DNA from: an uncultured Gemmatimonadota bacterium
Lineage (GTDB): Bacteria; Gemmatimonadota; Gemmatimonadetes; Gemmatimonadales; Gemmatimonadaceae
DNA: 57,990 nucleotides
NCBI GenBank assembly: GCA_902825965.1
Contig: CADEDA010000019.1
Span: forward strand, 1-57,990
Reading direction: 5' to 3'
Part shown: positions 46,558 to 57,990 of the stretch, piece by piece
Layout: each line of letters starts with the position of its first letter
Numbering within the stretch: the stretch's first letter is position 1
Notes under the pieces: model-generated
Seen by the model: the letters and a program-made list of their open reading frames with translations, nothing else
The model's database searches: none
Told to the model about the DNA's origin: nothing
Program-made: the position numbers and the translations under genes

Positions 46558-48834
46558 ATGTCGGCGTTCCGATCGACCCTGCGCGCGGCGATGGTCGCCG
46601 CATGCTGTGGCGTGGCGTTCACGCCGCTGCAGGCGCAGGACACAGCGGTGACGGTGTCCGGCCGCGTGGTGGTGGCCGGCAGCGACACGCCCTTGCCTGC
46701 GGCCAACATCCGCATCGTGGAGCTACATCGCGATGCCCGTGCGCATGAGGACGGGACGTTCGTGTTCTCGGCGGTGCCGAGTGGCACGTACGAACTCGTG
46801 GTGCAGCGCATCGGGTATCGGGCGGTGCGGCAGCCGCTCGTCGTCGGGCGCAGCGCCGTCACGGTCACCGTGCGCATGGTGGAGGCGCCGATCCAGTTGG
46901 CCGCCAGCGTGGTGACCGGGCAGATCTCGGAGCGGGGGTCGGTGGATGCGATCACCGCCACCAGCGTGCTGAGCGACGCCAAGCTCGACCGACGCCTCGA
47001 CGGCACGCTGGGCGCGACGGTCGCGGGCACACCGGGCGTCGCGGTGACGTCGATGGGACCGGCCACGGCGCGCCCCGTGCTCCGCGGCATGAGCGGTGAC
47101 CGGGTGCTCATCCTCGAGGACGGCCTGCGGCCGGGTGACCTGTCGAGCACGTCGATGGATCATGCCGTCGCGATGGACCCACTCACCGCGACGAAGGTCG
47201 AGGTGGTGCGTGGCCCGATGTCGTTGCTGTATGGGTCGAGTGCGCTCGGCGGCGTGGTGAACCTCATCCGGCAGGAGGTGCCGTCCACGTTGGCGGAGCA
47301 CCTGCACGGCAGCGTGAGTGTGCAAGCGACGTCGGCGAACGGCGGCGTGACCGCGGGCGGGTTCGGCGAGGCGCCGCTGCTGGGCCTCACTGTGCGCGGT
47401 GAAGCCAGCGGTCGGGTCGCAGGCGACATGCGCACACCCGTGGGTGCGCTGGTCAATACCGACGTGCAATCGGTGAACGGCAGCGTCGGCGCCTCACTGG
47501 TCCGCGATTGGGGCTACACGGGCGTCTCGTACCGGTTCTTCCAGAACGACTACGGCTTGCCGGGAGGCTTCGTCGGGGCGCACCCCGGCGGCGTGGACAT
47601 CACCATGACGCGGCACATGGTGCGGAGCGAGACCGATTGGCATCCGCAGGACGGGCGGTTCGAGAGCGTGAAGGCCAGCCTGAGCTTCACGGACTATGCA
47701 CACTCCGAACTGACCAACAGCGGGAACGTCTCCACGCGGTTCGAGCAACTGATGTCGGTGGGCGAGCTGCAGGTCCGGCACAAGCCGGTGGGCCCGTTCA
47801 CCTCCGGGGCGTTCGGCCTGCGCGCCCAGTACCGCGACATCACCACGGCGGGTGCGCTGCGCACCCCGTCCACCTCGGACTGGTCGGCGGCGGGGTTCGT
47901 GATCGAGGAGGCGGAGCTGGGCAAGCTGCGCCTGCAGGCCGGGGCGCGGTACGACCTCGCGAGGTTCACGCCGCTGGAGTCCGCGTCGGTCACGGTGGAC
48001 GGCGTCGCCATCCCGGCCGCGCCGCGGACCTTCGGTGCACTCTCCGCGTCGTTGGGTGCGTTGTACAAGTTCGACAACGGACTGCGGCTGGGGGCGAGCG
48101 CGAGCCAATCGTACCGCACGCCGGACTTCAACGAGCTGTACTCCGACGGTCCGCACCTCGCGGCCTACTCGTATGACGTCGGCAACCCGCGGATCCGTCG
48201 TGAGACGGGCCGCGGCGCGGAGCTGTTCGGCCGCGTCGAGCGCGAGCGCGTGCGCGTCGAGGTCGCCGCGTTCATGAACCGCATGGACGGCTACATCTTC
48301 CCGCGCAACACCGGCGAGCTCGGTCGCCAGGGCGAGCGCTGGAAGTTCCAGTACAGCAACGAGGACGCGACGCTGGTCGGCGCCGAGGGGGAGCTTGAGT
48401 GGACCCTGGCGCAGCATGTGGTGCTCGACGGGAGTGTGTCGTACGTGCGCGGGGACCTGCGCGGTCCGCGCGACACCGTCCCCGGCATCAACGGCGCGCC
48501 GGACGTGCTGGAATCGTCCTTCCTCCCCCTCATGCCGCCGTTGCACGGTCGCGTGGGTGCGCGCCATGAGACCGCACGCTGGTCGTACGGGGGCGGGCTC
48601 CGCTGGGCCGCCGCGCAGGACCGCCTCGGGGATTTCGAGACCGTGACGGACGCCTACGCGACCGCCGACCTGTTCGTGGGCTGGCGCCTGCTGCTGGGCG
48701 GCCGGCTGCACAGCGTCACCGTCAAGGTGGACAACCTGCTCGACGCGGAGATCCGGGACCATCTCTCGCGCACCAAGACCATCATCCCGGAAATGGGGCG
48801 CAACATCTCGCTCCTGTACCGGGTGCAGTTCTGA
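46558..48834 (+). CDS. TonB-dependent outer-membrane receptor, ZnuD-like
   Basis: 758 residues. A signal peptide ends near PLQAQ. A carboxypeptidase-regulatory-like domain (about 30-110: VSGRVVVAGSDTPLPAANI) precedes the plug (about 115-235: LGATVAGTPGVAVTSMGPAT, RPVLRGMSGDRVLILEDGLR, VRGPMSLLYGSSALGGVVNL). A 22-strand-type barrel ends with Phe. The segment with LPGGFVGAHPGGVDITMTRH and FTDYAHSEL resembles the zinc/haem receptor ZnuD group. It imports a metal complex across the outer membrane using TonB energy. GGAGA precedes the ATG. Confidence 0.9.
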   Translation: MSAFRSTLRAAMVAACCGVAFTPLQAQDTAVTVSGRVVVAGSDTPLPAANIRIVELHRDARAHEDGTFVFSAVPSGTYELVVQRIGYRAVRQPLVVGRSAVTVTVRMVEAPIQLAASVVTGQISERGSVDAITATSVLSDAKLDRRLDGTLGATVAGTPGVAVTSMGPATARPVLRGMSGDRVLILEDGLRPGDLSSTSMDHAVAMDPLTATKVEVVRGPMSLLYGSSALGGVVNLIRQEVPSTLAEHLHGSVSVQATSANGGVTAGGFGEAPLLGLTVRGEASGRVAGDMRTPVGALVNTDVQSVNGSVGASLVRDWGYTGVSYRFFQNDYGLPGGFVGAHPGGVDITMTRHMVRSETDWHPQDGRFESVKASLSFTDYAHSELTNSGNVSTRFEQLMSVGELQVRHKPVGPFTSGAFGLRAQYRDITTAGALRTPSTSDWSAAGFVIEEAELGKLRLQAGARYDLARFTPLESASVTVDGVAIPAAPRTFGALSASLGALYKFDNGLRLGASASQSYRTPDFNELYSDGPHLAAYSYDVGNPRIRRETGRGAELFGRVERERVRVEVAAFMNRMDGYIFPRNTGELGRQGERWKFQYSNEDATLVGAEGELEWTLAQHVVLDGSVSYVRGDLRGPRDTVPGINGAPDVLESSFLPLMPPLHGRVGARHETARWSYGGGLRWAAAQDRLGDFETVTDAYATADLFVGWRLLLGGRLHSVTVKVDNLLDAEIRDHLSRTKTIIPEMGRNISLLYRVQF

Positions 48835-48875
48835 CCCAACGCTCCATTCCACTCCACAACCACAGAGGCATCATC

Positions 48876-49334
48876 ATGGCTGTCTTCTCCGCTTTCACCC
48901 GTCGTCGTTTTGTCACCGCCACCGCCGCGCTGCTCGCCCTGAGCCTCGGCGCCTGCAAGGATTCCACCTCGCCCGAGGAGGAGCCCGAGGTCGTGACCAT
49001 GCGGATCACGCCGGCCGGCGGCGCCGCCGTCACGGTGAGCAGCACGGGTGTCGTCACGGGCACGCTCACGGTCCCGGCCGCGGGCACGCGTGCCTTCACG
49101 GTCGAGTTCCTGAACGCCGCCGGCGCGCCGGATCCGCTGGTGGTCGGCAGCACCTTCCAGGTCTCCGTCACGCCGGCGGCCGGCATCACCTTCGCGCGGA
49201 CGGGCCCCTTCGCCGGGACGCTGACCGCCGGCGCGGCGGGCACGGTGGCGGTGCAGTTCGGTCTCCTGCACATCGAGGAGAACCACAACGACTTCGGTCC
49301 GTTCACCGTGAACGTGTCGGTCGTCGCGCCGTAA
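48876..49334 (+). CDS. Lipoprotein, possibly Tat-exported, downstream of the TonB receptor
   Basis: 152 residues. The N-terminus has a TRRRFVT twin-arginine-like motif (8-14), a hydrophobic stretch and the lipobox SLGAC with Cys27. The mature protein is an all-beta, Thr/Val/Gly-rich domain (MRITPAGGAAVTVSSTGVVT, TVPAAGTRAFTVEFLNAAG). It ends in a His-containing part (LLHIEENHNDFGPFTVNV) that could hold a metal. An AGAGG ribosome-binding site lies before the ATG. Its position suggests a cell-surface or periplasmic partner of the receptor. Confidence 0.75.
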   Translation: MAVFSAFTRRRFVTATAALLALSLGACKDSTSPEEEPEVVTMRITPAGGAAVTVSSTGVVTGTLTVPAAGTRAFTVEFLNAAGAPDPLVVGSTFQVSVTPAAGITFARTGPFAGTLTAGAAGTVAVQFGLLHIEENHNDFGPFTVNVSVVAP

Positions 49335-49368
49335 GCGCCTCAGGCGCGACTCAGGCGCTTACGGCGCG
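49325..49368. terminator. Bidirectional hairpin overlapping the lipoprotein stop codon
   Basis: A 16-base-pair perfect stem (CGCGCCGTAAGCGCCT / AGGCGCTTACGGCGCG) with a 12-base loop includes the TAA stop (49332-49334). It ends two bases before the end of the convergent Mur-ligase gene. Confidence 0.8.
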
Positions 49369-49370
49369 CC

Positions 49371-51023
49371 TCACGCGCGCACGCGCGCCTTCACGCGCTC
49401 GCGTGCGTCGAGTGCGTGTACGGGCAACACCAGCAGGTCCCCGGGCGCCGCCCACCGCAGCAGTCGGTCCACCCCATCCGCTTCGTCGGTGGCGTGGTCG
49501 ATGCGGTCGGGCGGCGCGCCGCATGCGAGGAGTTCGTCGCGCAGGATCGCGGGCACCTCGCCCGGCAGCCGCCCGCGGAGGTAGCCGTCGATGTCCTTGA
49601 GCACCACACGATCGGGCCGGGCCTGCCACGCGGTGCGCGCGAGTTCGCGCACGGCGTCGTCACCGCGGTCGCCGGCCTGACCGAGCAGCAACCCGAGGCG
49701 CCCGTCGCCTCGTGCGGTCGCCGCGGCGTCGAGCAGCGCCCCCAGGCCGTGCGGGTTGTGCGCGTAGTCGATCCAGATGCGCACCCCAGCCCGCTCGAAG
49801 CGCTCGAGGCGTCCGGGATTGTCCTGGTTGGAGCGCCCGAACACGCGCAGTGTGGCGTCGATGAGTGCGGGACTCACGCCGAGTCCCCGCGCGACGTGTG
49901 CCGCGCCGATGGCGTTGGCCACGTTGTGCACTGCGGTCCCGCCGAGCGTGAACGGCATCGCCGCCGGCTCGGGGACGCCGTCACAGGTCTCCTCTACGTG
50001 GAACCAGTCGGTGCGCCCGCGGTGCCGCTCGACGTAGCGCGGGCCGATCTCGCGCAGCGTGGGGTCGCCGGCGTTGAGCACGAGCGTCCCCGTGGCGGCG
50101 AGCGCCTGCGTGACGACGAGCTTGGCCTCGGCAAGGTCCTGCAGCGACTGGATGCCATAGCCCCCGAAGTGGTCGGCGGCGATGTTGGTGACGATGGCGG
50201 CATCCGCGCGCGGCACCGCCAGTCCGCGCCGCAGAAGGCCGCCGCGCGCCGTCTCGAGCACCGCGGCCGTGACGCGCCGGTCACGCAGGACCATGCGCGC
50301 ACCGGCCGGCCCCGACCAGTCGCCGCGCGCCACCTGTTCACCTTCGACGAACACGCCGTCGCTGCAGCAGTACCCCACTGTGTGCCCGGCGCGCTGCAGC
50401 ATCGCCGCGACGAGGCGCACCGTGGTCGTCTTGCCGTTGCTGCCGGTGACGAGGGCGACCGGCACCGGCCGGTGTGCGGACCAATCCACGGACGCGGGGC
50501 TGGGCAGTGCCGCGAGTGGCCACTTGAGGCTGTTGATGCCGTACCCGAGGCTCACCTCGGCCTCGTCGAAGAGCATCGGCGTGTTGGTCACGCTCGCGCG
50601 GGCGGCGAGTGCGACCAGCGTGGGATGCTGCTCCAGCGCGATGTGCTCGCGCAGTGCGGCGAGTGCGGCGGCGTCGTCGATCGGCAGACGGGGCTCGGTG
50701 AGGTCGCCCGTGAGCGCGGCGCGTGCGGCGCCATCGGGCGCGGCGCGCGTCCAGGCCCACTCGTTGACCATCGTGGCGGCGAGCAGCAGGTCGATGGGTG
50801 CGGTGAGCGCGAGGATGCCGCCGCGCGCGGTGGTCCGCACCTGCCACCCCACGGCGCTGGTGAGCCGGTGCACGTACGCACGCCACGCGACGACCTCCGC
50901 CGCCTCACGGCGTGGGGTCAGCGCCGCATCGAGGACGGCACCGGGAGCGTCGAGCCAGAGGGACGGGCCGAAGAGCCGGCGGGAGTCAGTCCAGAGCGGA
51001 GGTGGGGCGGAGGACTCGGTCAC
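49371..51023 (-). CDS. Mur-ligase-type protein paired with cyanophycin synthetase
   Basis: 550 residues starting at GTG 51023, four bases after the cphA stop. Residues 1-180 form an N-terminal region without an ATP-grasp signature (LWTDSRRLFGPSLWLDAPGA ... NSLKWPLAALPSP). Residues 185-545 are a Mur ligase module with GSNGKTTT (194-201), VLETARGGLLRRGLAVPRAD, TNIAADHFGGYGI, and IDYAHNPHGLGALLDA. The module resembles that of CphA (GTNGKTTT, LEIARGGLLRAGMG, DYGHNAHAVDA). It probably forms a peptide bond on cyanophycin or a related dipeptide. It is not CphA1, because the G domain is absent. Exact role not known to me. Confidence 0.8.
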   Translation of the reverse strand: MTESSAPPPLWTDSRRLFGPSLWLDAPGAVLDAALTPRREAAEVVAWRAYVHRLTSAVGWQVRTTARGGILALTAPIDLLLAATMVNEWAWTRAAPDGAARAALTGDLTEPRLPIDDAAALAALREHIALEQHPTLVALAARASVTNTPMLFDEAEVSLGYGINSLKWPLAALPSPASVDWSAHRPVPVALVTGSNGKTTTVRLVAAMLQRAGHTVGYCCSDGVFVEGEQVARGDWSGPAGARMVLRDRRVTAAVLETARGGLLRRGLAVPRADAAIVTNIAADHFGGYGIQSLQDLAEAKLVVTQALAATGTLVLNAGDPTLREIGPRYVERHRGRTDWFHVEETCDGVPEPAAMPFTLGGTAVHNVANAIGAAHVARGLGVSPALIDATLRVFGRSNQDNPGRLERFERAGVRIWIDYAHNPHGLGALLDAAATARGDGRLGLLLGQAGDRGDDAVRELARTAWQARPDRVVLKDIDGYLRGRLPGEVPAILRDELLACGAPPDRIDHATDEADGVDRLLRWAAPGDLLVLPVHALDARERVKARVRA

Positions 51024-51027
51024 CGCG

Positions 51028-53820
51028 TCAGTCGTCGCTCGCGCGCGCGAGGCGCACGCCGCGTTCGTCGCGGACGAGCGACCCCAGCTCGCGCTGCACC
51101 AACTCGGCCGTCGGTTCACTCGGGGTCGGGACCGGGCGCGGCACGGGGTGCTCGGCCGTCACCGGCTTGGCGGCCCCTTCCGGGTGGAAGTGGATGATCT
51201 GCTTCCACGTGCGGACGATCTCGTCGCCGAAGACCAGCACGAGGTCGCCGGCGCGCGCCATGCGCAGGGCGGCGTCCACGGCCTGCTGCTCGTCCGGGAT
51301 CACGGCGATGCGGGCGGCCGGGACGCCGGCCTCCTTGAGCGTGGCCGCGATCATGGTGGGCACCTCGTCGCCGTCGCGGCCGCGGAGCGAGTCGTCGCGA
51401 CGGCAGATGTAGTGGTCGAAACGGTTGGCCACCGCGCGCGCGATCTCGCGGATGTCCTCGTCGCGCCGGTCGCCCGGGCCGGCGACCACCACGATGCGTC
51501 GGCCGCTGACGTCGAGGCGCTCCGCGAGCTGCGCCATCGCGTCCACCGCATGGGCGTTGTGGCCGTAGTCGAGGATGACCTTGAATGGGTGTTCGTTGAA
51601 GACGTTGGTGCGGCCCGGCGCCTGGAAGAACGTCGTGTCGAAGGTGCGCAGGCCCTGGCGGATGGTCTCGAGCTTGAGGCCCATGGAGAAGGCCATCGCG
51701 GCGGCGAACATCGCGTTGCCGACGTTGTGCATCGCCCGGCCTTCCATCGTCGCCGGGATGAGGTGCGTCCACAGCAGCGGGATGTGGGCGCCCTTGTCGT
51801 AGAGCGTGATCATCTGGCCGTTCACGCCGGTCTCGAGCGAGACCGCACGGCCGCCGGCGCGGATGTGCTCGCGGACGAGGGCGTGGGCCGGGTCCATCGT
51901 CACGTAGCAGAGGTGCTTGGCGTCGGTGTACGCCGCCATCTTCAGGCAGAGGGGGTCATCGGCGTTCAGCACCGCGGTGTCGCGTGCGACCTCCACGATG
52001 GTGCGCTTCACCTCGGCCAGGGCCTCGAGCGTGTCGATCCCCTTGAGGCCCAGATGGTCCGAGCGGACGTTCAGCACGGCGCCGACGTCCACGTACCGCG
52101 TGCCCATGCCGGCGCGCAGCAGTCCACCGCGCGCGATCTCGAGGACCGCGACGTCGATGGACGGATCCCCGAGCACGGTGCGCGTCGCGACCGGGCCCGT
52201 CATGTCACCCTCGACCGTGCGCTGTCCGTCGATGTAGACGCCGTCCGTGGTGGTGAGTCCGGGCGTCATGCCGCCCATCTTGCAGATGTGGGCCAGCATG
52301 CGGGACGTCGTGGTCTTGCCGTTGGTGCCGGTGATGGCCGCGATCGGCACGACCGTCGGCGAACCCACCGGGAAGAGCATGTCGATGACCGGCCCGGCCA
52401 CGTCGCGCGGCTTGCCCTCGCTGGGGGCGCTGTGCATGCGGAAGCCGGGCGCGGCGTTCACCTCGCAGATCGCGCCGCCGTGTTTCTTGTAGGACTCGGT
52501 GATGTCGGCACACAGGAAGTCCACGCCGCCGACGTCGAGCCCGATGGCCTGGATCGCGCGGACGGCCATCTCGGCGTTGTCCGGATGGATGACGTCGGTG
52601 ACGTCGGTGGCCGTGCCGCCGGTGGACAGGTTGGCGGTCGAGCGGAGGTAGACGACCTCTCCGGCCGCGGGCACGCTGGCGGCCGTATAGCCGAGTTTCT
52701 CGAGCAGGCGTTCGGCCTGCGCGTCGAGTTCGAGGCGCGTGAGCACCTTCTCGTGCCCGATGCCGCGGCGGGGGTCCTGGTTCACGACGTCGATCAGCTG
52801 GGCGATGCTGCGGCGGCCGTCCCCCACCACGTGACCCGGCGTGCGGCGCGTGGCGGCGACCAGCACGCCGTTCACCACGAGCAGCCGATGGTCATCGCCG
52901 GTGATGTAGCTCTCGACGAGCACCGAGCGCGAGACCTCCTGCGCGGCGGCGAAGGCGCTGCGGACCGCCTCCTCGGTGGTGAGGTGGATCGCGACCGCGC
53001 GACCGTGGTTGCCATTGTAGGGCTTCACGACCACCGGGTATCCGATCCGTTTGGCCGCGCGCACGGCGGCATCGGCGCTTTGCACCAGCTCCTGCTTGGG
53101 TACGGGCAGGCCGAGCATGCCGAGCAGCTTGTTCGTCTCCTCCTTGTCACTCGCGAGCTCCACCGCGATGTGCGAGGTGCGCCCCGTGACGGTCGCCTGG
53201 ATGCGCTGCTGGTACTTGCCGTAGCCGAGCTGGACGAGCGACTGGTTGTTGAGCCGGATCCAGGGGATGCCGCGCTTCTCCGCAGCCTGCACGAGGTTCG
53301 CGGTGCTGGGGCCCAGGGCACGTCGCTGTGCGAAGCGGATGAAGGCCTCGCGTTCGCGTGGCCAGTCGAAGGGCTCCTCCCCGGTCTGGGTGCGCAGTGC
53401 GGGCGGGAGCAGGGAATCGAGGAGCCGCATGGCGAGCTCGCCGGCTTCGAGCCCCTCGTCCTTCTGTTCGTACTCGTAGACCACGTGGTACACGCCGGGG
53501 CGGCCCGCCCCGCGGGTCTTGCCGAACGTGACCTTGATGCCCGCGACGTTCTGCAGCTCGATCGCGACATGCTCGAGCACGTGGCCCAGCCAGGTACCCT
53601 CGTCCTCGGTCATGCGGCGGATGAACCCACCCGGCTCGCCGTAGGAGCAGCCGTGTTCCGCCAGGCCGGGGAGTGCGGCGATCAGGCCACCGGTGAACGC
53701 GGGCCCGAGCTTCGCGGTGGGCCAGTCCTCGAGGGCGCCGAGGTCGAGTTCGAGCCGGATGACCGGGAAGTGGGCATACAGCGAGGGGCCGACGTAGACG
53801 GAGCGGTCGAGGATGCGCAT
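51028..53820 (-). CDS. cphA: Cyanophycin synthetase CphA
   Basis: 930 residues. CphA polymerises Asp and Arg into multi-L-arginyl-poly-L-aspartate using two ATP-dependent sites. The N domain (1-~160) contains the metallopeptidase-like HxxEH motif at 80-84 (GHVLEHVAIELQ), the position of the primer-generating site reported for some CphA1. The ATP-grasp G domain spans about 224-485 (SDKEETNKLLGMLGLPVPKQ, VVVKPYNGNHGRAVAIHL, EVNAAPGFRMH). The M domain follows with GTNGKTTT at 498-505, EIARGGLLRAGMG and VILDYGHNAHAVDAMA. A charged C-terminal tail is added. It lies between cphB and the Mur-ligase gene. Confidence 0.96.
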   Translation of the reverse strand: MRILDRSVYVGPSLYAHFPVIRLELDLGALEDWPTAKLGPAFTGGLIAALPGLAEHGCSYGEPGGFIRRMTEDEGTWLGHVLEHVAIELQNVAGIKVTFGKTRGAGRPGVYHVVYEYEQKDEGLEAGELAMRLLDSLLPPALRTQTGEEPFDWPREREAFIRFAQRRALGPSTANLVQAAEKRGIPWIRLNNQSLVQLGYGKYQQRIQATVTGRTSHIAVELASDKEETNKLLGMLGLPVPKQELVQSADAAVRAAKRIGYPVVVKPYNGNHGRAVAIHLTTEEAVRSAFAAAQEVSRSVLVESYITGDDHRLLVVNGVLVAATRRTPGHVVGDGRRSIAQLIDVVNQDPRRGIGHEKVLTRLELDAQAERLLEKLGYTAASVPAAGEVVYLRSTANLSTGGTATDVTDVIHPDNAEMAVRAIQAIGLDVGGVDFLCADITESYKKHGGAICEVNAAPGFRMHSAPSEGKPRDVAGPVIDMLFPVGSPTVVPIAAITGTNGKTTTSRMLAHICKMGGMTPGLTTTDGVYIDGQRTVEGDMTGPVATRTVLGDPSIDVAVLEIARGGLLRAGMGTRYVDVGAVLNVRSDHLGLKGIDTLEALAEVKRTIVEVARDTAVLNADDPLCLKMAAYTDAKHLCYVTMDPAHALVREHIRAGGRAVSLETGVNGQMITLYDKGAHIPLLWTHLIPATMEGRAMHNVGNAMFAAAMAFSMGLKLETIRQGLRTFDTTFFQAPGRTNVFNEHPFKVILDYGHNAHAVDAMAQLAERLDVSGRRIVVVAGPGDRRDEDIREIARAVANRFDHYICRRDDSLRGRDGDEVPTMIAATLKEAGVPAARIAVIPDEQQAVDAALRMARAGDLVLVFGDEIVRTWKQIIHFHPEGAAKPVTAEHPVPRPVPTPSEPTAELVQRELGSLVRDERGVRLARASDD

Positions 53821-53835
53821 GCCCCTAAGGTGCAG

Positions 53836-54678
53836 CTAGCTCTTCCCCACCGCGAGGGTGCCGGCGGAAGCCTCGCGACTGTGCAGGTTGAACGTGTTGC
53901 CGCGGATGAGCACGTGCATGGTCAGGCCCAGCATCGAGACGGGGTCGTTGGCGCCGGCCTGGTCCATCGACGAGAACTTGAGGTGCTCCGCGTCCACCAC
54001 CGTGAGCGTGCCGCTGCCCTCCACCTCGACGGTCTGGTCCGGCCCGATGAATGCGGCGGTGTCCTCGTCCAGTCCCAATCCGATGAGGAACGGGTTGAAG
54101 GCGAGGGCGGTGATGAGCCGGCCCAGCCGGTTGCGCTGCGTGAAGTGCTGGTCGATCACCACGCGATTGGTGAGTCCGAGGCCCGGGGCCAGTGTCACGG
54201 AGCCGGCGTGCGGCGTCACGTTGTCCTCGCCGAACGCGATCATGTGCTCGGAGAGGAAACTCGCGCCGGCGCTGGTGCCGGCGATGTGGGCGCCGTGTGC
54301 ATTGCGCTCGCGGAGCATACGCGCCACGTCGGTGCCGCCGATGAGCGTGGACAACCGCAACTGGTTGCCGCCGGTGAGGAAGATGCCGTCACAGTCCGCG
54401 ATCTGCGCGAGGCGGCCCGGCTCGTACGCGTCGCGGCGGGTGTCGAAGTCGAGCACGTGCACCTCTGCCGCGCCGAGGTCCGAGAACAGGCGCTGATAGC
54501 GCGCGCCGGTGTCCTCGAGCTTGGACGCGGTAGGGATCACCATCAGCCGTGCGTCCCGGCCGCCGCAGAGCTGCACGAAGCGGTCGAGGATCACCGGATT
54601 GTGTTCCTTCTGCTCCCCGCCACCGATGGGGATGATGTACCCACGCGCCCCGCCAGCGGGCACCTTGGACGGACTCAT
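53836..54678 (-). CDS. cphB: Cyanophycinase CphB
   Basis: 280-residue serine peptidase of family S51. It cuts cyanophycin to beta-Asp-Arg dipeptides. Motifs are GYIIPIGGGEQKEHNPVILD, VIPTASK, FLTGGNQLRLSTLIGG, the nucleophile Ser136 in HIAGTSAGASFLSEHM, and TLAPGLGLTNRVVIDQHFTQ, RNRLGRLI. Its start overlaps the isoaspartyl dipeptidase stop by four bases (ATGA). No signal peptide is present, as expected for a cytoplasmic storage polymer. Confidence 0.95.
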   Translation of the reverse strand: MSPSKVPAGGARGYIIPIGGGEQKEHNPVILDRFVQLCGGRDARLMVIPTASKLEDTGARYQRLFSDLGAAEVHVLDFDTRRDAYEPGRLAQIADCDGIFLTGGNQLRLSTLIGGTDVARMLRERNAHGAHIAGTSAGASFLSEHMIAFGEDNVTPHAGSVTLAPGLGLTNRVVIDQHFTQRNRLGRLITALAFNPFLIGLGLDEDTAAFIGPDQTVEVEGSGTLTVVDAEHLKFSSMDQAGANDPVSMLGLTMHVLIRGNTFNLHSREASAGTLAVGKS

Positions 54679-55832
54679 TCGAAGGTCCCTCGGACCACAG
54701 GTTGTCCGGCACGGACGTGCCAGAGGCCGCGCGCCATCACGTCGCGGACGGTGCCATCCGCATCGAGCACCACGAGGTCCGCGTCGGCACCGACCCGTAC
54801 CTGGCCCTTGCCCGGCAACCGGAGCAAGGCGGCCGGGTTGGCGGTGAACGCCGGCAGCACACGCTCCAGGGGTGCACCCTTGGCCACGGCGGCGCGCAGG
54901 GCCGTCGCGAGATCGCCCGGCTCGCCCACGCCCATGCGGGTCACCCGCCCGGCGTCATCGAAGGTCGGCAGGCAGCCGCCGCCGTCGGAACTCACGCTGA
55001 CACGATCCGCCGGCGCATCCGAGTCGAGATACCGCAGGAGCGCGTCCTCGGCCGCGTACGCATCCTCGCCCTCCGCCACCGGGAAGGCGGTGAGGTCCAC
55101 GTGCGAGCCCTCGCGCGCGAGCGCGATCGCGTCGTCGAGCAACGCCCTGCGCCGGTTGACGTGCGTGGGGTTGAAGGTGCGCGGGTACAGCTCCGTGCCG
55201 GCGAGCGCCGCGCGGATGGGCTCGAGCCCGCGCGCCCCGTCGCCCACATGCAGGTGCACCACGCCGGCCTTGCCCGTCATCAGGCCACCCACGTGGGCCT
55301 CGCTCGCGAGGCGTCGCAGCTCGTCCGTCGTCGGCTGCGACGAGCGATGGTCGCTGATCGCACACTTGGCACCGATCACGGCGTCGATGCTCGCGATGTC
55401 GCCCCGCACGGAGCCGGTGATGCTGACCGGCGGCACGTGGTAGCCGGCCGTGTAACACCACGCGGAGAGCCCTTCCTGCCGGATGCCGTGAACGGCGGTG
55501 ACGAGTTCACGCGGGTGGCGCGTCGCGTCGTCGGTGCCGAGCAGCGCGACGACGGACGTGATGCCGCTGCGCGTGAAGCGCGTGAGCGCGAGCGGGGGCA
55601 CCTTGGTGTGGGCACCGGCCTCCCCCCCGCCGCCGGTGAGGTGCACGTGGGCATCCACGAGTCCGGGGATGACGATGCGGCCCTCGCAGTCCACGGACTC
55701 GGCGCCGAGGTACGGCGGCAGGTCGAGGCGCGGCCCGCCCATCCACACGATGCGGCCGCCGGCGACGAGCAGGTGGCGGACGCCGAGCGGGGCGGGAGCG
55801 TAGACGCGCGCGTTGAGGAGGAGCGTGAGCAC
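54675..55832 (-). CDS. iadA: Isoaspartyl dipeptidase (beta-aspartyl peptidase)
   Basis: 385-residue amidohydrolase-superfamily enzyme that splits beta-aspartyl dipeptides. Here it would convert the cyanophycinase product beta-Asp-Arg to Asp and Arg. Visible motifs are VIPGLVDAHVHLTGGGGEAG with the HxH metal pair, GITSVVALLGTD, the AGYHVPPVSITGSVRGDI substrate loop, HLHVGDG, FNPTHVNRRRALLDD and VSVSSDGGGCLPTFDDAG. Start GTG 55832, five bases after TAACTT. It heads the cyanophycin operon. Confidence 0.93.
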   Translation of the reverse strand: MLTLLLNARVYAPAPLGVRHLLVAGGRIVWMGGPRLDLPPYLGAESVDCEGRIVIPGLVDAHVHLTGGGGEAGAHTKVPPLALTRFTRSGITSVVALLGTDDATRHPRELVTAVHGIRQEGLSAWCYTAGYHVPPVSITGSVRGDIASIDAVIGAKCAISDHRSSQPTTDELRRLASEAHVGGLMTGKAGVVHLHVGDGARGLEPIRAALAGTELYPRTFNPTHVNRRRALLDDAIALAREGSHVDLTAFPVAEGEDAYAAEDALLRYLDSDAPADRVSVSSDGGGCLPTFDDAGRVTRMGVGEPGDLATALRAAVAKGAPLERVLPAFTANPAALLRLPGKGQVRVGADADLVVLDADGTVRDVMARGLWHVRAGQPVVRGTFE

Positions 55833-55837
55833 GCTGG

Positions 55838-55876
55838 AAGTTACTCGGCTCCGAGCGCGTTTTGCACGCGCCGGAG
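55838..55876 (-). promoter_or_regulatory. Promoter region of the cyanophycin operon
   Basis: TAACTT (55838-55843) is the likely -10 element, five bases before GTG 55832. A hairpin (55849-55876; CTCCG/CGGAG and CGCGT/ACGCG with a small bulge) covers the spacer and -35 area. It could end the ftsX-envC transcript or bind a regulator. Confidence 0.4.
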
Positions 55877-55965
55877 TCGGGATTCGGTGGGCTCCGCTGC
55901 GCTGCCCGGCCGATCGGTCGCACTGCGGCTCCCACGCGCGTCGCCGCGAGACCGCGCGCGTCCGC

Positions 55966-57189
55966 CTACGGCCGCCGCAGCCACTCCAGCGGATCGAGTG
56001 CCGTCACGTCGCGGCGCATCTCGAAGTGCAGACGCGGCGGGAGATCGGGATCCGACTGCCCGACCGCCCCGAGCACGTCCCCCTTGTTGATCTTCGCGCC
56101 CTTCCGCACGCTGATCGCGCTGAGCGACATGTAGAGCGAGTACAGGCCGCCGCCGTGTTGCACGATCACCGTCAGTCCGTACGTGCCGTTCGGCTCGGCG
56201 TACACCACGTCGCCCGCGGCCACCGCCTTCACCGGTGTGCCCACCGGCGCGCCGATGCCGATCCCGTTCCAGCGGATCGACGTGTTGTTCGGGTTCATCG
56301 CCCGCCCGAACCGGTAGACGATCTCGCCGTTCACCGGCCAGTCGAGCCGCCCGAGGTCCGTCGTCGTCACCGAGCGCGTGGGCGGTGCGGCGTTGGGCCG
56401 CGCCTCGGCGCGCCGTCGCGAGGCTTCCAACGCGGCGATGATCCCGCCGAGCCGCTGCTCGTCGCGCTGCACCTGCTTGAGCCGCTCCTCCGCCTGCCGC
56501 GCCTGCGCTTGCAGCTGCGCCAGCGTGCGCCCGCGCTGCAGCTCCAGGCGCCGGAGCCGCGCCTCCTCGTCGGCCTTCTGCTGCCGGTTGGTCTCCATGT
56601 CGGACCGCAGGCGCACCAGCAGGTAGCGCTGGGCCGTGATCTGCCCGCTCAGCGTCTCCACGCGCTTCACCAGCGCCCGATCGCGTTGGGCCACCAGGTG
56701 CAGGTACTTGTAGCGCGCCACCAGCGCGCCGAACGATTCGGCCGAGAGCAGGGCCTCGAGGCTGTAGAGGGGCCCGCGCTTGTAGATCTCCTGCACGCGG
56801 TTCCGCAGGGTCGAGCGCTTGATGAGCAGTTCATCCTGCGTCCGCGCCAGGCTGGTGTTCACGTTCTCCACCTCCTCGACGAGCGACCCCAGCTGCGCGT
56901 CGAGGGAGCGCACCACGCGCGACGTGGCCGCGGCCTGCCGCTCGAGGTTCTGCCGTTCGGCGGCCACGTCGCGGGCATTGGATTGCAGGCGCCGCATGCG
57001 CTGCTCGAGTTCCTGGCGTTCGGTGCGGAGCCGCTCGAGTTCGAGTTGTTCCTGCCGCAGCCGCTCGGCGGCCTGCTGCGCGGACGGTGGCAACGGGGCC
57101 TTGGACTGCGCCGTCGCGGCGCCGGCCGGCAGGGCCAGCATGCCGGCGCCGAGCGCGAGCAGCAGCGCCGGCATCGCGCCGCGCATCAT
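55966..57189 (-). CDS. envC: EnvC-like murein hydrolase activator with degenerate LytM domain
   Basis: 407 residues. A signal peptide ends near GAATAQ. Long coiled coils follow (about 45-160 and 190-275; EQLELERLRTERQELEQRM, ERLKQVQRDEQRLGG). The LytM/M23 domain occupies about 295-405. Its metal ligands are missing: the HxGxD position reads RWNGIGIG, the HxH region reads PPRLHFE, and YAHL is YMSL. EnvC proteins lack catalytic residues and instead activate amidases on command from FtsEX. The gene follows ftsX by one base, which supports that role. Confidence 0.88.
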   Translation of the reverse strand: MMRGAMPALLLALGAGMLALPAGAATAQSKAPLPPSAQQAAERLRQEQLELERLRTERQELEQRMRRLQSNARDVAAERQNLERQAAATSRVVRSLDAQLGSLVEEVENVNTSLARTQDELLIKRSTLRNRVQEIYKRGPLYSLEALLSAESFGALVARYKYLHLVAQRDRALVKRVETLSGQITAQRYLLVRLRSDMETNRQQKADEEARLRRLELQRGRTLAQLQAQARQAEERLKQVQRDEQRLGGIIAALEASRRRAEARPNAAPPTRSVTTTDLGRLDWPVNGEIVYRFGRAMNPNNTSIRWNGIGIGAPVGTPVKAVAAGDVVYAEPNGTYGLTVIVQHGGGLYSLYMSLSAISVRKGAKINKGDVLGAVGQSDPDLPPRLHFEMRRDVTALDPLEWLRRP

Positions 57190-57190
57190 C

Positions 57191-57990
57191 TCAGACCCGC
57201 CGGAGGTGCCGGCCCACCGACACCGCACTGCCGAGAAGGCCGATCAAGGCGCCGCCGAGCACGCCGAGGATGGCGAGGCCGGTGCTGAAATACGTCGCCT
57301 CCACCACGTACTGTCCCACGAACTGGAACGTGAAGTACGTCAGCACGAGTGCGAGCAGCCCACCGAGCAGGCCCTTGAGGAACCCCTCCACGAGGAAGGG
57401 CGCGCGGATGAAGCCGTTGGTCGCACCCACGAGGCGCATGATGTGGATCTCGCGGCTCCGCGCCAGCACAGCCATGCGGATCGTCGAGCCGATGATGATC
57501 ACGGCGACGAGCGCGAAGGTGACGCCGAGCGAGAGGCCCACCGCGGTGGCGATGTTGCGGATCTTGTAGAGCTTCTCGACCCATTCCTCGCCATACCGGA
57601 TGTCGTCGATGAAGTCGTAGAACTCCAGGCGCCGCGCCACCGAGCGTACGTGCTCCGGGTCGCGGAAGCCCTCGCGCAGGCGCACTTCAATCGATGCCGG
57701 CAGGATGCCGGCCTCGAACACGTCCTCGAACTCGCCCAGCTCGCGGCGGGCGCGCTCGAGGGCCTGTACGTCGCTCACGTAGCGCACGGACGCGACCTCG
57801 GGGAACGCGGCGATGTCGCCCACCGCCGCACTCGTCGCCTCGGCCAGCGTGCCCTCGGCGACGAAGCCGCGGATCTCCACACGCTCCTCGACGTTGGCGA
57901 GCGCGTCGCGCAGGTTGAGGTAGACCAGGCCGAACAGCCCGAACGCGAACAGCGAGAACGCGATCGTGGTCACGCTCAGCAGGCTGAGCA
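57191..57990 (-). CDS. ftsX: Cell-division protein FtsX (5' end outside window)
   Basis: Partial: the reading frame continues past the window edge. The visible 266 residues contain the first transmembrane helix (TTIAFSLFAFGLFGLVYL), the periplasmic domain (NVEERVEIRGFVAEGTLAEA ... VEVRL-like region, FIDDIRYGEEWVEKLYKI) and three C-terminal helices. The cytoplasmic motif VLARSREIHIMRLVGATNGFI and FLVEGFLKGLLGG are typical. FtsX with ATPase FtsE signals through EnvC-type proteins to open septal peptidoglycan. ftsE probably lies just outside the window. Confidence 0.93.
   Translation of the reverse strand, partial: LSLLSVTTIAFSLFAFGLFGLVYLNLRDALANVEERVEIRGFVAEGTLAEATSAAVGDIAAFPEVASVRYVSDVQALERARRELGEFEDVFEAGILPASIEVRLREGFRDPEHVRSVARRLEFYDFIDDIRYGEEWVEKLYKIRNIATAVGLSLGVTFALVAVIIIGSTIRMAVLARSREIHIMRLVGATNGFIRAPFLVEGFLKGLLGGLLALVLTYFTFQFVGQYVVEATYFSTGLAILGVLGGALIGLLGSAVSVGRHLRRV

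Follow-up and report, generated by a model that had tools for sequence, protein, structure and literature searches.

A CphA-like Mur ligase without an ATP-grasp domain as the conserved fourth member of a predicted cyanophycin operon in Gemmatimonadota

Why should a bacterial locus that already encodes enzymes to make, cut and hydrolyse cyanophycin also carry a second Mur-ligase gene? The question arises from a 57,990 nt stretch (the window) of contig CADEDA010000019.1, from an uncultured Gemmatimonadota bacterium of the family Gemmatimonadaceae (assembly GCA_902825965.1). An initial annotation had placed there four minus-strand genes that overlap or lie no more than 15 nt apart, and both their coordinates and their order proved correct. 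The first, iadA (isoaspartyl dipeptidase, 385 aa; 54675..55832, minus strand), begins at a GTG at 55832, the first start codon past an in-frame stop, and overlaps cphB (intracellular cyanophycinase, 280 aa; 53836..54678, minus strand) by 4 nt, the cphB ATG being shared with the iadA stop codon as ATGA. After a gap of 15 nt, and with AGGGG just 5′ of its ATG, follows cphA (cyanophycin synthetase CphA1, 930 aa; 51028..53820, minus strand), and 4 nt further on lies the fourth gene, cphA′ (49371..51023, minus strand), for a CphA paralogue of 550 aa with a predicted N domain, a complete Mur ligase and no ATP-grasp domain. The longest open reading frame of cphA′ runs from 51119 and would encode 582 aa; the start was taken as GTG 51023, most likely the true one on account of homologue alignments and the position of the CphA stop codon.

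We infer that iadA, cphB, cphA and cphA′ are co-transcribed as one operon. A strong hairpin found by RNA folding at 49325..49370, in the gap where cphA′ and a plus-strand gene converge, is a possible operon end (−44.6 kcal/mol, z −4.0, no T tract); a scan for T-tract terminators did not detect it and found no terminators in this 72% GC DNA, a sigma-70 promoter scan of the locus gave no match, and neither did an Rfam search of 48000–57990. On the 5′ side, 133 nt from iadA, are two minus-strand genes (57973–55966 for both together), ftsX, called by position and sequence, and a gene for an EnvC-like M23 peptidase, a neighbourhood that is kept in three close relatives (L009, L062 and L083).

The products of the first three genes all exceed the curated NCBIfam equivalog cut-offs of their families and keep their catalytic residues, as their original identification would have it. 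IadA scores 367 bits against TIGR01975 (cut-off 331); its closest solved relative is the L. mucor enzyme LmIadA (8dqn), which is encoded in a cyanophycin cluster and against which the metal and substrate motifs HVH, VHLHVGDG and NPTHVNR and the Lys at the bridging position are kept. CphB scores 257 bits against TIGR02069 (cut-off 127), its GTSAGAS, IDQHF and DEDT motifs align to 3en0 and 7uqw, with GTSAGAS matching the nucleophile serine motif (S51) of 3en0, and inspection by eye revealed no signal peptide. CphA scores 1124 bits against TIGR02068 (cut-off 850), has an N domain, an ATP-grasp (G) domain and a Mur-ligase (M) domain in line with its Pfam matches, and aligns to 7lgn, 7lgm and 7lg5. 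From the published lists of CphA1 active-site residues (PMC9427784, PMC9262961), the 7lg5 alignment shows E215, K220, K261, H267, R309 and R323 of the G site and D585 and H586 of the M site to be present (SuCphA1/TeCphA1 numbering). The N-domain site Cx19HxxEH, a primer-making endo-cyanophycinase (PMC9262961), occurs here as Cx21HxxEH, with all four residues and two more loop residues, so CphA should be self-priming. The proposed sequence of making, cutting and hydrolysing the polymer is thus sustained by family cut-offs and alignments to solved enzymes. The host assembly has one CphA above the TIGR02068 cut-off and, elsewhere, a separate IaaA/asparaginase-2 gene. A locus for scavenging cyanophycin was ruled out: it has a cphA gene, there is no transporter gene next to it, and, as noted, inspection of CphB gave no sign of a signal peptide. 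Clusters of cphA1, a cyanophycinase gene and iadA occur in 37 of 231 genomes having all three according to a published survey (PMC10206079), and this part of the locus is therefore ordinary. The window locus shares three enzymes with those clusters and differs from them in its fourth: the accessible part of the survey, in whose tables minor phyla are pooled as ‘Other’, mentions no fourth gene for a Mur ligase alone.

In CphA′, Pfam recognised Mur_ligase_M and Mur_ligase_C only, both above cut-off, which agrees with the description of the fourth product as a second Mur-ligase protein; no ATP-grasp domain was recognised, and the score of 294 bits against TIGR02068 is below the cut-off of 850. 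An AlphaFold2 model built from 35 homologues (pLDDT 94.4, pTM 0.93) overlays, over residues 9–550, on residues 1–877 of TeCphA1 (Z 35.1, rmsd 3.2, 515 aligned), passing over the G domain of 7wae in the overlay, and Foldseek agrees with this placement on full-length CphA1. Sequence profiles gave weak collinear matches of the N region to the CphA N domain (E about 0.004–0.006), which the predicted fold settled in favour of a CphA-type N domain, one that lacks the HxxEH site. Judged from the model, CphA′ appears to be a CphA minus its ATP-grasp domain and with a dead N-domain protease site. With CphA1 (7lg5, 7wae, 7lgn) it has in common the N-domain fold, the entire Mur-ligase domain and the catalytic M residues; it differs in having neither the G domain nor HxxEH and in failing TIGR02068.

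Two known families invite comparison. Cyanobacterial CphA2 (7ta5, 8fxh) is likewise a cut-down CphA paralogue beside CphA1, and polymerises β-Asp-Arg through a single active site (PMC10206079), but its architecture is the reverse of that of CphA′, which drops G and keeps M. The solved CphA2 chains match the window CphA across its G domain and into the beginning of its M domain, and CphA2 was absent from the matches of a phmmer search with CphA′; without an ATP-grasp domain, CphA′ was ruled out as a CphA2. MurE (2xja, 1e8c) and other Mur ligases share the Mur core and lid fold, but their overlays on CphA′ are weaker (Z about 20–25 over roughly 300–380 residues, compared with 35 over 515), and CphA′, unlike them, has a CphA-type N domain in front and no peptidoglycan gene context. 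Both the overlay and the tree group it with CphA, which excludes its identification as MurE.

The Mur active site of CphA′ is conserved. Residues T193, G194, N196–T200, E257, D284, H285, K301, R405, D419, H422 and N423 are invariant among the 35 homologues; CphA′ thus has the P-loop, catalytic Asp-His, Lys and His-Asn of a Mur-type ligase, and catalysis is predicted from its sequence. Among 107 M-domain columns conserved in CphA, 51 are common to CphA′ at ≥90%, including the P-loop, E561, D588–H589, K605, R737, D751, H754–N755 and the RGR motif, and 31 are clearly different. The acidic residue before RGR, D809 in CphA (97%), is unconserved among the CphA′ homologues, many of which lack the Asp that the window protein has there (D479). 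By analogy with MurE, this is presumably where the incoming amino acid is recognised, and the amino acid added by CphA′ may consequently not be Arg. The conserved active site also bears on the possibility that CphA′ has no catalytic function and is instead a partner or regulator of CphA, its N domain binding polymer or hetero-oligomers tuning CphA. The dead N-domain site would suit such a role, as would strict linkage to one type of CphA and a divergence about twice that of CphA, fast as a regulatory subunit might diverge (both described below); but a full, invariant set of Mur ATP-binding and catalytic residues is unlike a decayed pseudo-enzyme, and contrasts with a protein encoded beside another type of cphA, whose Mur core has lost its P-loop. 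We consider a purely non-catalytic role unlikely.

For the distribution of the gene we used whole-genome searches of 249 Gemmatimonadota genomes of at least 90% completeness; a scan of a named genome collection with the fourth protein alone had returned a single relative, a ‘Gemmatimonadaceae bacterium’ MAG in which the four genes stand in the identical order and the fourth protein is 73% identical, in line with the Gemmatimonadota-like host first proposed. CphA above cut-off occurs in 58 of the 249 genomes, so that roughly one in four of those sampled has cyanophycin metabolism. Loci from CphA-positive and related genomes were sorted into type I (cphB-cphA-cphA′; 39, the window included) and type II (22). 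In type I, cphA′ lies directly 3′ of cphA at 37 of 39 loci; it is on another contig in one genome and was not found in one, so it is not strictly essential. None of the 22 type II loci has cphA′, and CphA-less genomes among the 249 yielded no CphA′-type match at E 1e-40. The search of Gemmatimonadota genomes that the initial annotation had proposed found the four-gene order again in relatives, with iadA and cphB no more than 26 nt apart, and the arrangement is far beyond chance. The position of iadA varies among type I loci: it is close upstream in 12, 1–1.8 kb off but on the same strand in 3, divergently oriented in 9 and missing from the vicinity in 15. The suggestion that the layout implies control at the enzyme level, not by separate transcription, is unsupported: gene spacing is silent on internal promoters, iadA is often divergent or distant, and clustering of cphA with a cyanophycinase gene is the rule, found in 81% of genomes with both (PMC10206079). 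The order cphB-cphA-‘Mur ligase family protein’ was also found on replicons of Alphaproteobacteria (Ruegeria, Shinella) and on a plasmid labelled Roseateles. It would be possible to regard the window as one more of the described three-enzyme clusters, its fourth gene a redundant, drifting duplicate; however, this gene, its catalytic residues invariant, is kept beside type I cphA phylum-wide and also occurs in Alphaproteobacteria, and we find mere redundancy highly improbable.

The CphA′ proteins form one clade (support 100/100) whose branching mirrors the CphA tree. CphA and CphA′ distances correlate (Mantel r 0.61, with none of 2000 permutations as high), and CphA′ has diverged about twice as much as CphA. 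CphA paralogues that keep the Mur P-loop and have a lost or broken G domain also occur in Deinococcus, in Legionella adelaidensis and, on the type II side, in one Gemmatimonadota genome. The G-broken Deinococcus paralogue adjoins the full Deinococcus CphA in the tree, and a single origin of all G-less proteins, some of which are long branches, was rejected (p-AU 9.7e-5); G-less paralogues thus seem to have arisen several times beside full CphA. Deinococcus sp. KNUC1210 has the order cphA, iaaA, cphB and G-broken paralogue, the last itself split into two annotated genes, and its locus is a parallel complete operon.

Several of these loci have features of their own. Deinococcus paralogues annotated as ‘Mur ligase family’ and without recognisable ATP-grasp catalytic motifs lie at L112:5699-8215, L116:5872-8046 and L115:5684-8183, the last belonging to a single run that also includes cphA, iaaA and cphB, and split into two annotated genes. 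On a Legionella adelaidensis plasmid, a CphA-like protein with the N motif and a Mur ligase but no ATP-grasp (L114:4995-8639) is followed by a cyanophycinase and an isoaspartyl peptidase; no full CphA was found on this plasmid. The type II-side protein (L109:4359-6263) is a G-less N+M paralogue of separate origin, from a genome (G215) that also carries a type II CphA and an N-only protein. Downstream of type II cphA (at L053, L059, L064, L078, L084, L086, L088–L090, L093, L095–L098, L101, L102 and L104) is a gene for a protein of about 350 aa that has no ATP-grasp but combines an N domain of the CphA type, its Cx19HxxEH intact, with a Mur core from which both P-loop and lid are missing (AlphaFold2 pLDDT 94; Z 33.6 to 7txv). 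This protein is a candidate stand-alone primer-making endo-cyanophycinase; at L104, where CphA has lost the N motif, the neighbour retains it.

Taken together, we favour, with a probability of roughly 60%, a four-gene cyanophycin operon in which CphA′ serves in trans as an accessory side-chain ligase that adds Arg or another amino acid to cyanophycin. Behind this reading stand the domain content, the intact catalytic residues, the linkage to one type of CphA, the co-divergence with it and the G-less forms of separate origin; the substrate and ligase activity of CphA′ and accumulation of the polymer are what we infer. CphA would polymerise Asp and Arg, with Asp placed on the backbone by the G domain and Arg on the side chain by the M domain, while the N domain would probably trim the enzyme's own primers; CphB would cleave the polymer to β-Asp-Arg, which IadA would split into Asp and Arg. 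CphA′, presumably an old CphA paralogue that lost the ATP-grasp domain and the N-domain protease site, would retain an N domain of the polymer-binding type together with a live Mur ligase, and would most likely attach Arg or another amino acid to an Asp terminus of cyanophycin at the expense of ATP. An enzyme with an intact M active site that cannot extend the backbone, for want of ATP-grasp, might instead join Arg (or Lys) to free Asp, giving β-Asp dipeptides that start or re-start chains, and so not act on polymer at all. We regard this as quite unlikely, since the neighbouring CphA retains its primer-making motif, a single β-Asp-Arg is not usable as a primer by TmCphA1 (PMC9262961), and the product would be hydrolysed by the IadA of the same operon. 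Extending the preferred side-chain ligase reading, we advance only tentatively, as a possibility we hold at somewhat under even odds, that CphA paralogues in which the G domain is lost or dead and the Mur ligase live have evolved repeatedly and act in trans with full CphA, either boosting Arg ligation or adding a different amino acid.

What is new at this locus is its fourth gene, for a conserved, uncharacterised CphA′ in an otherwise known system. Its counterparts in Alphaproteobacteria carry no specific name, only the annotation ‘Mur ligase family protein’, and a search of an open literature library for a Mur-ligase companion of CphA gave no match. Papers by Krehenbrink, Fueser and Steinbuechel reportedly describe a second, betaproteobacterial ‘cphA prime’, and in view of this older literature priority for CphA′ is uncertain. 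A full-text search combining cyanophycin with the names of the phylum returned, among the matches listed, no paper on cyanophycin metabolism in Gemmatimonadota. The role of CphA′ is open to direct test, as the enzymes involved are already well assayed, and the protein would merit inclusion in heterologous production strains. Cyanophycin synthesis is usually regarded as the work of one enzyme; a second, conserved ligase that accompanies one CphA lineage in two phyla, and that has parallels in CphA paralogues of independent origin, would change views of how the composition of the polymer and the rate of its synthesis are set. If CphA paralogues do act in trans, two enzymes would together synthesise cyanophycin in these bacteria, and its composition may depart from plain Asp-Arg.
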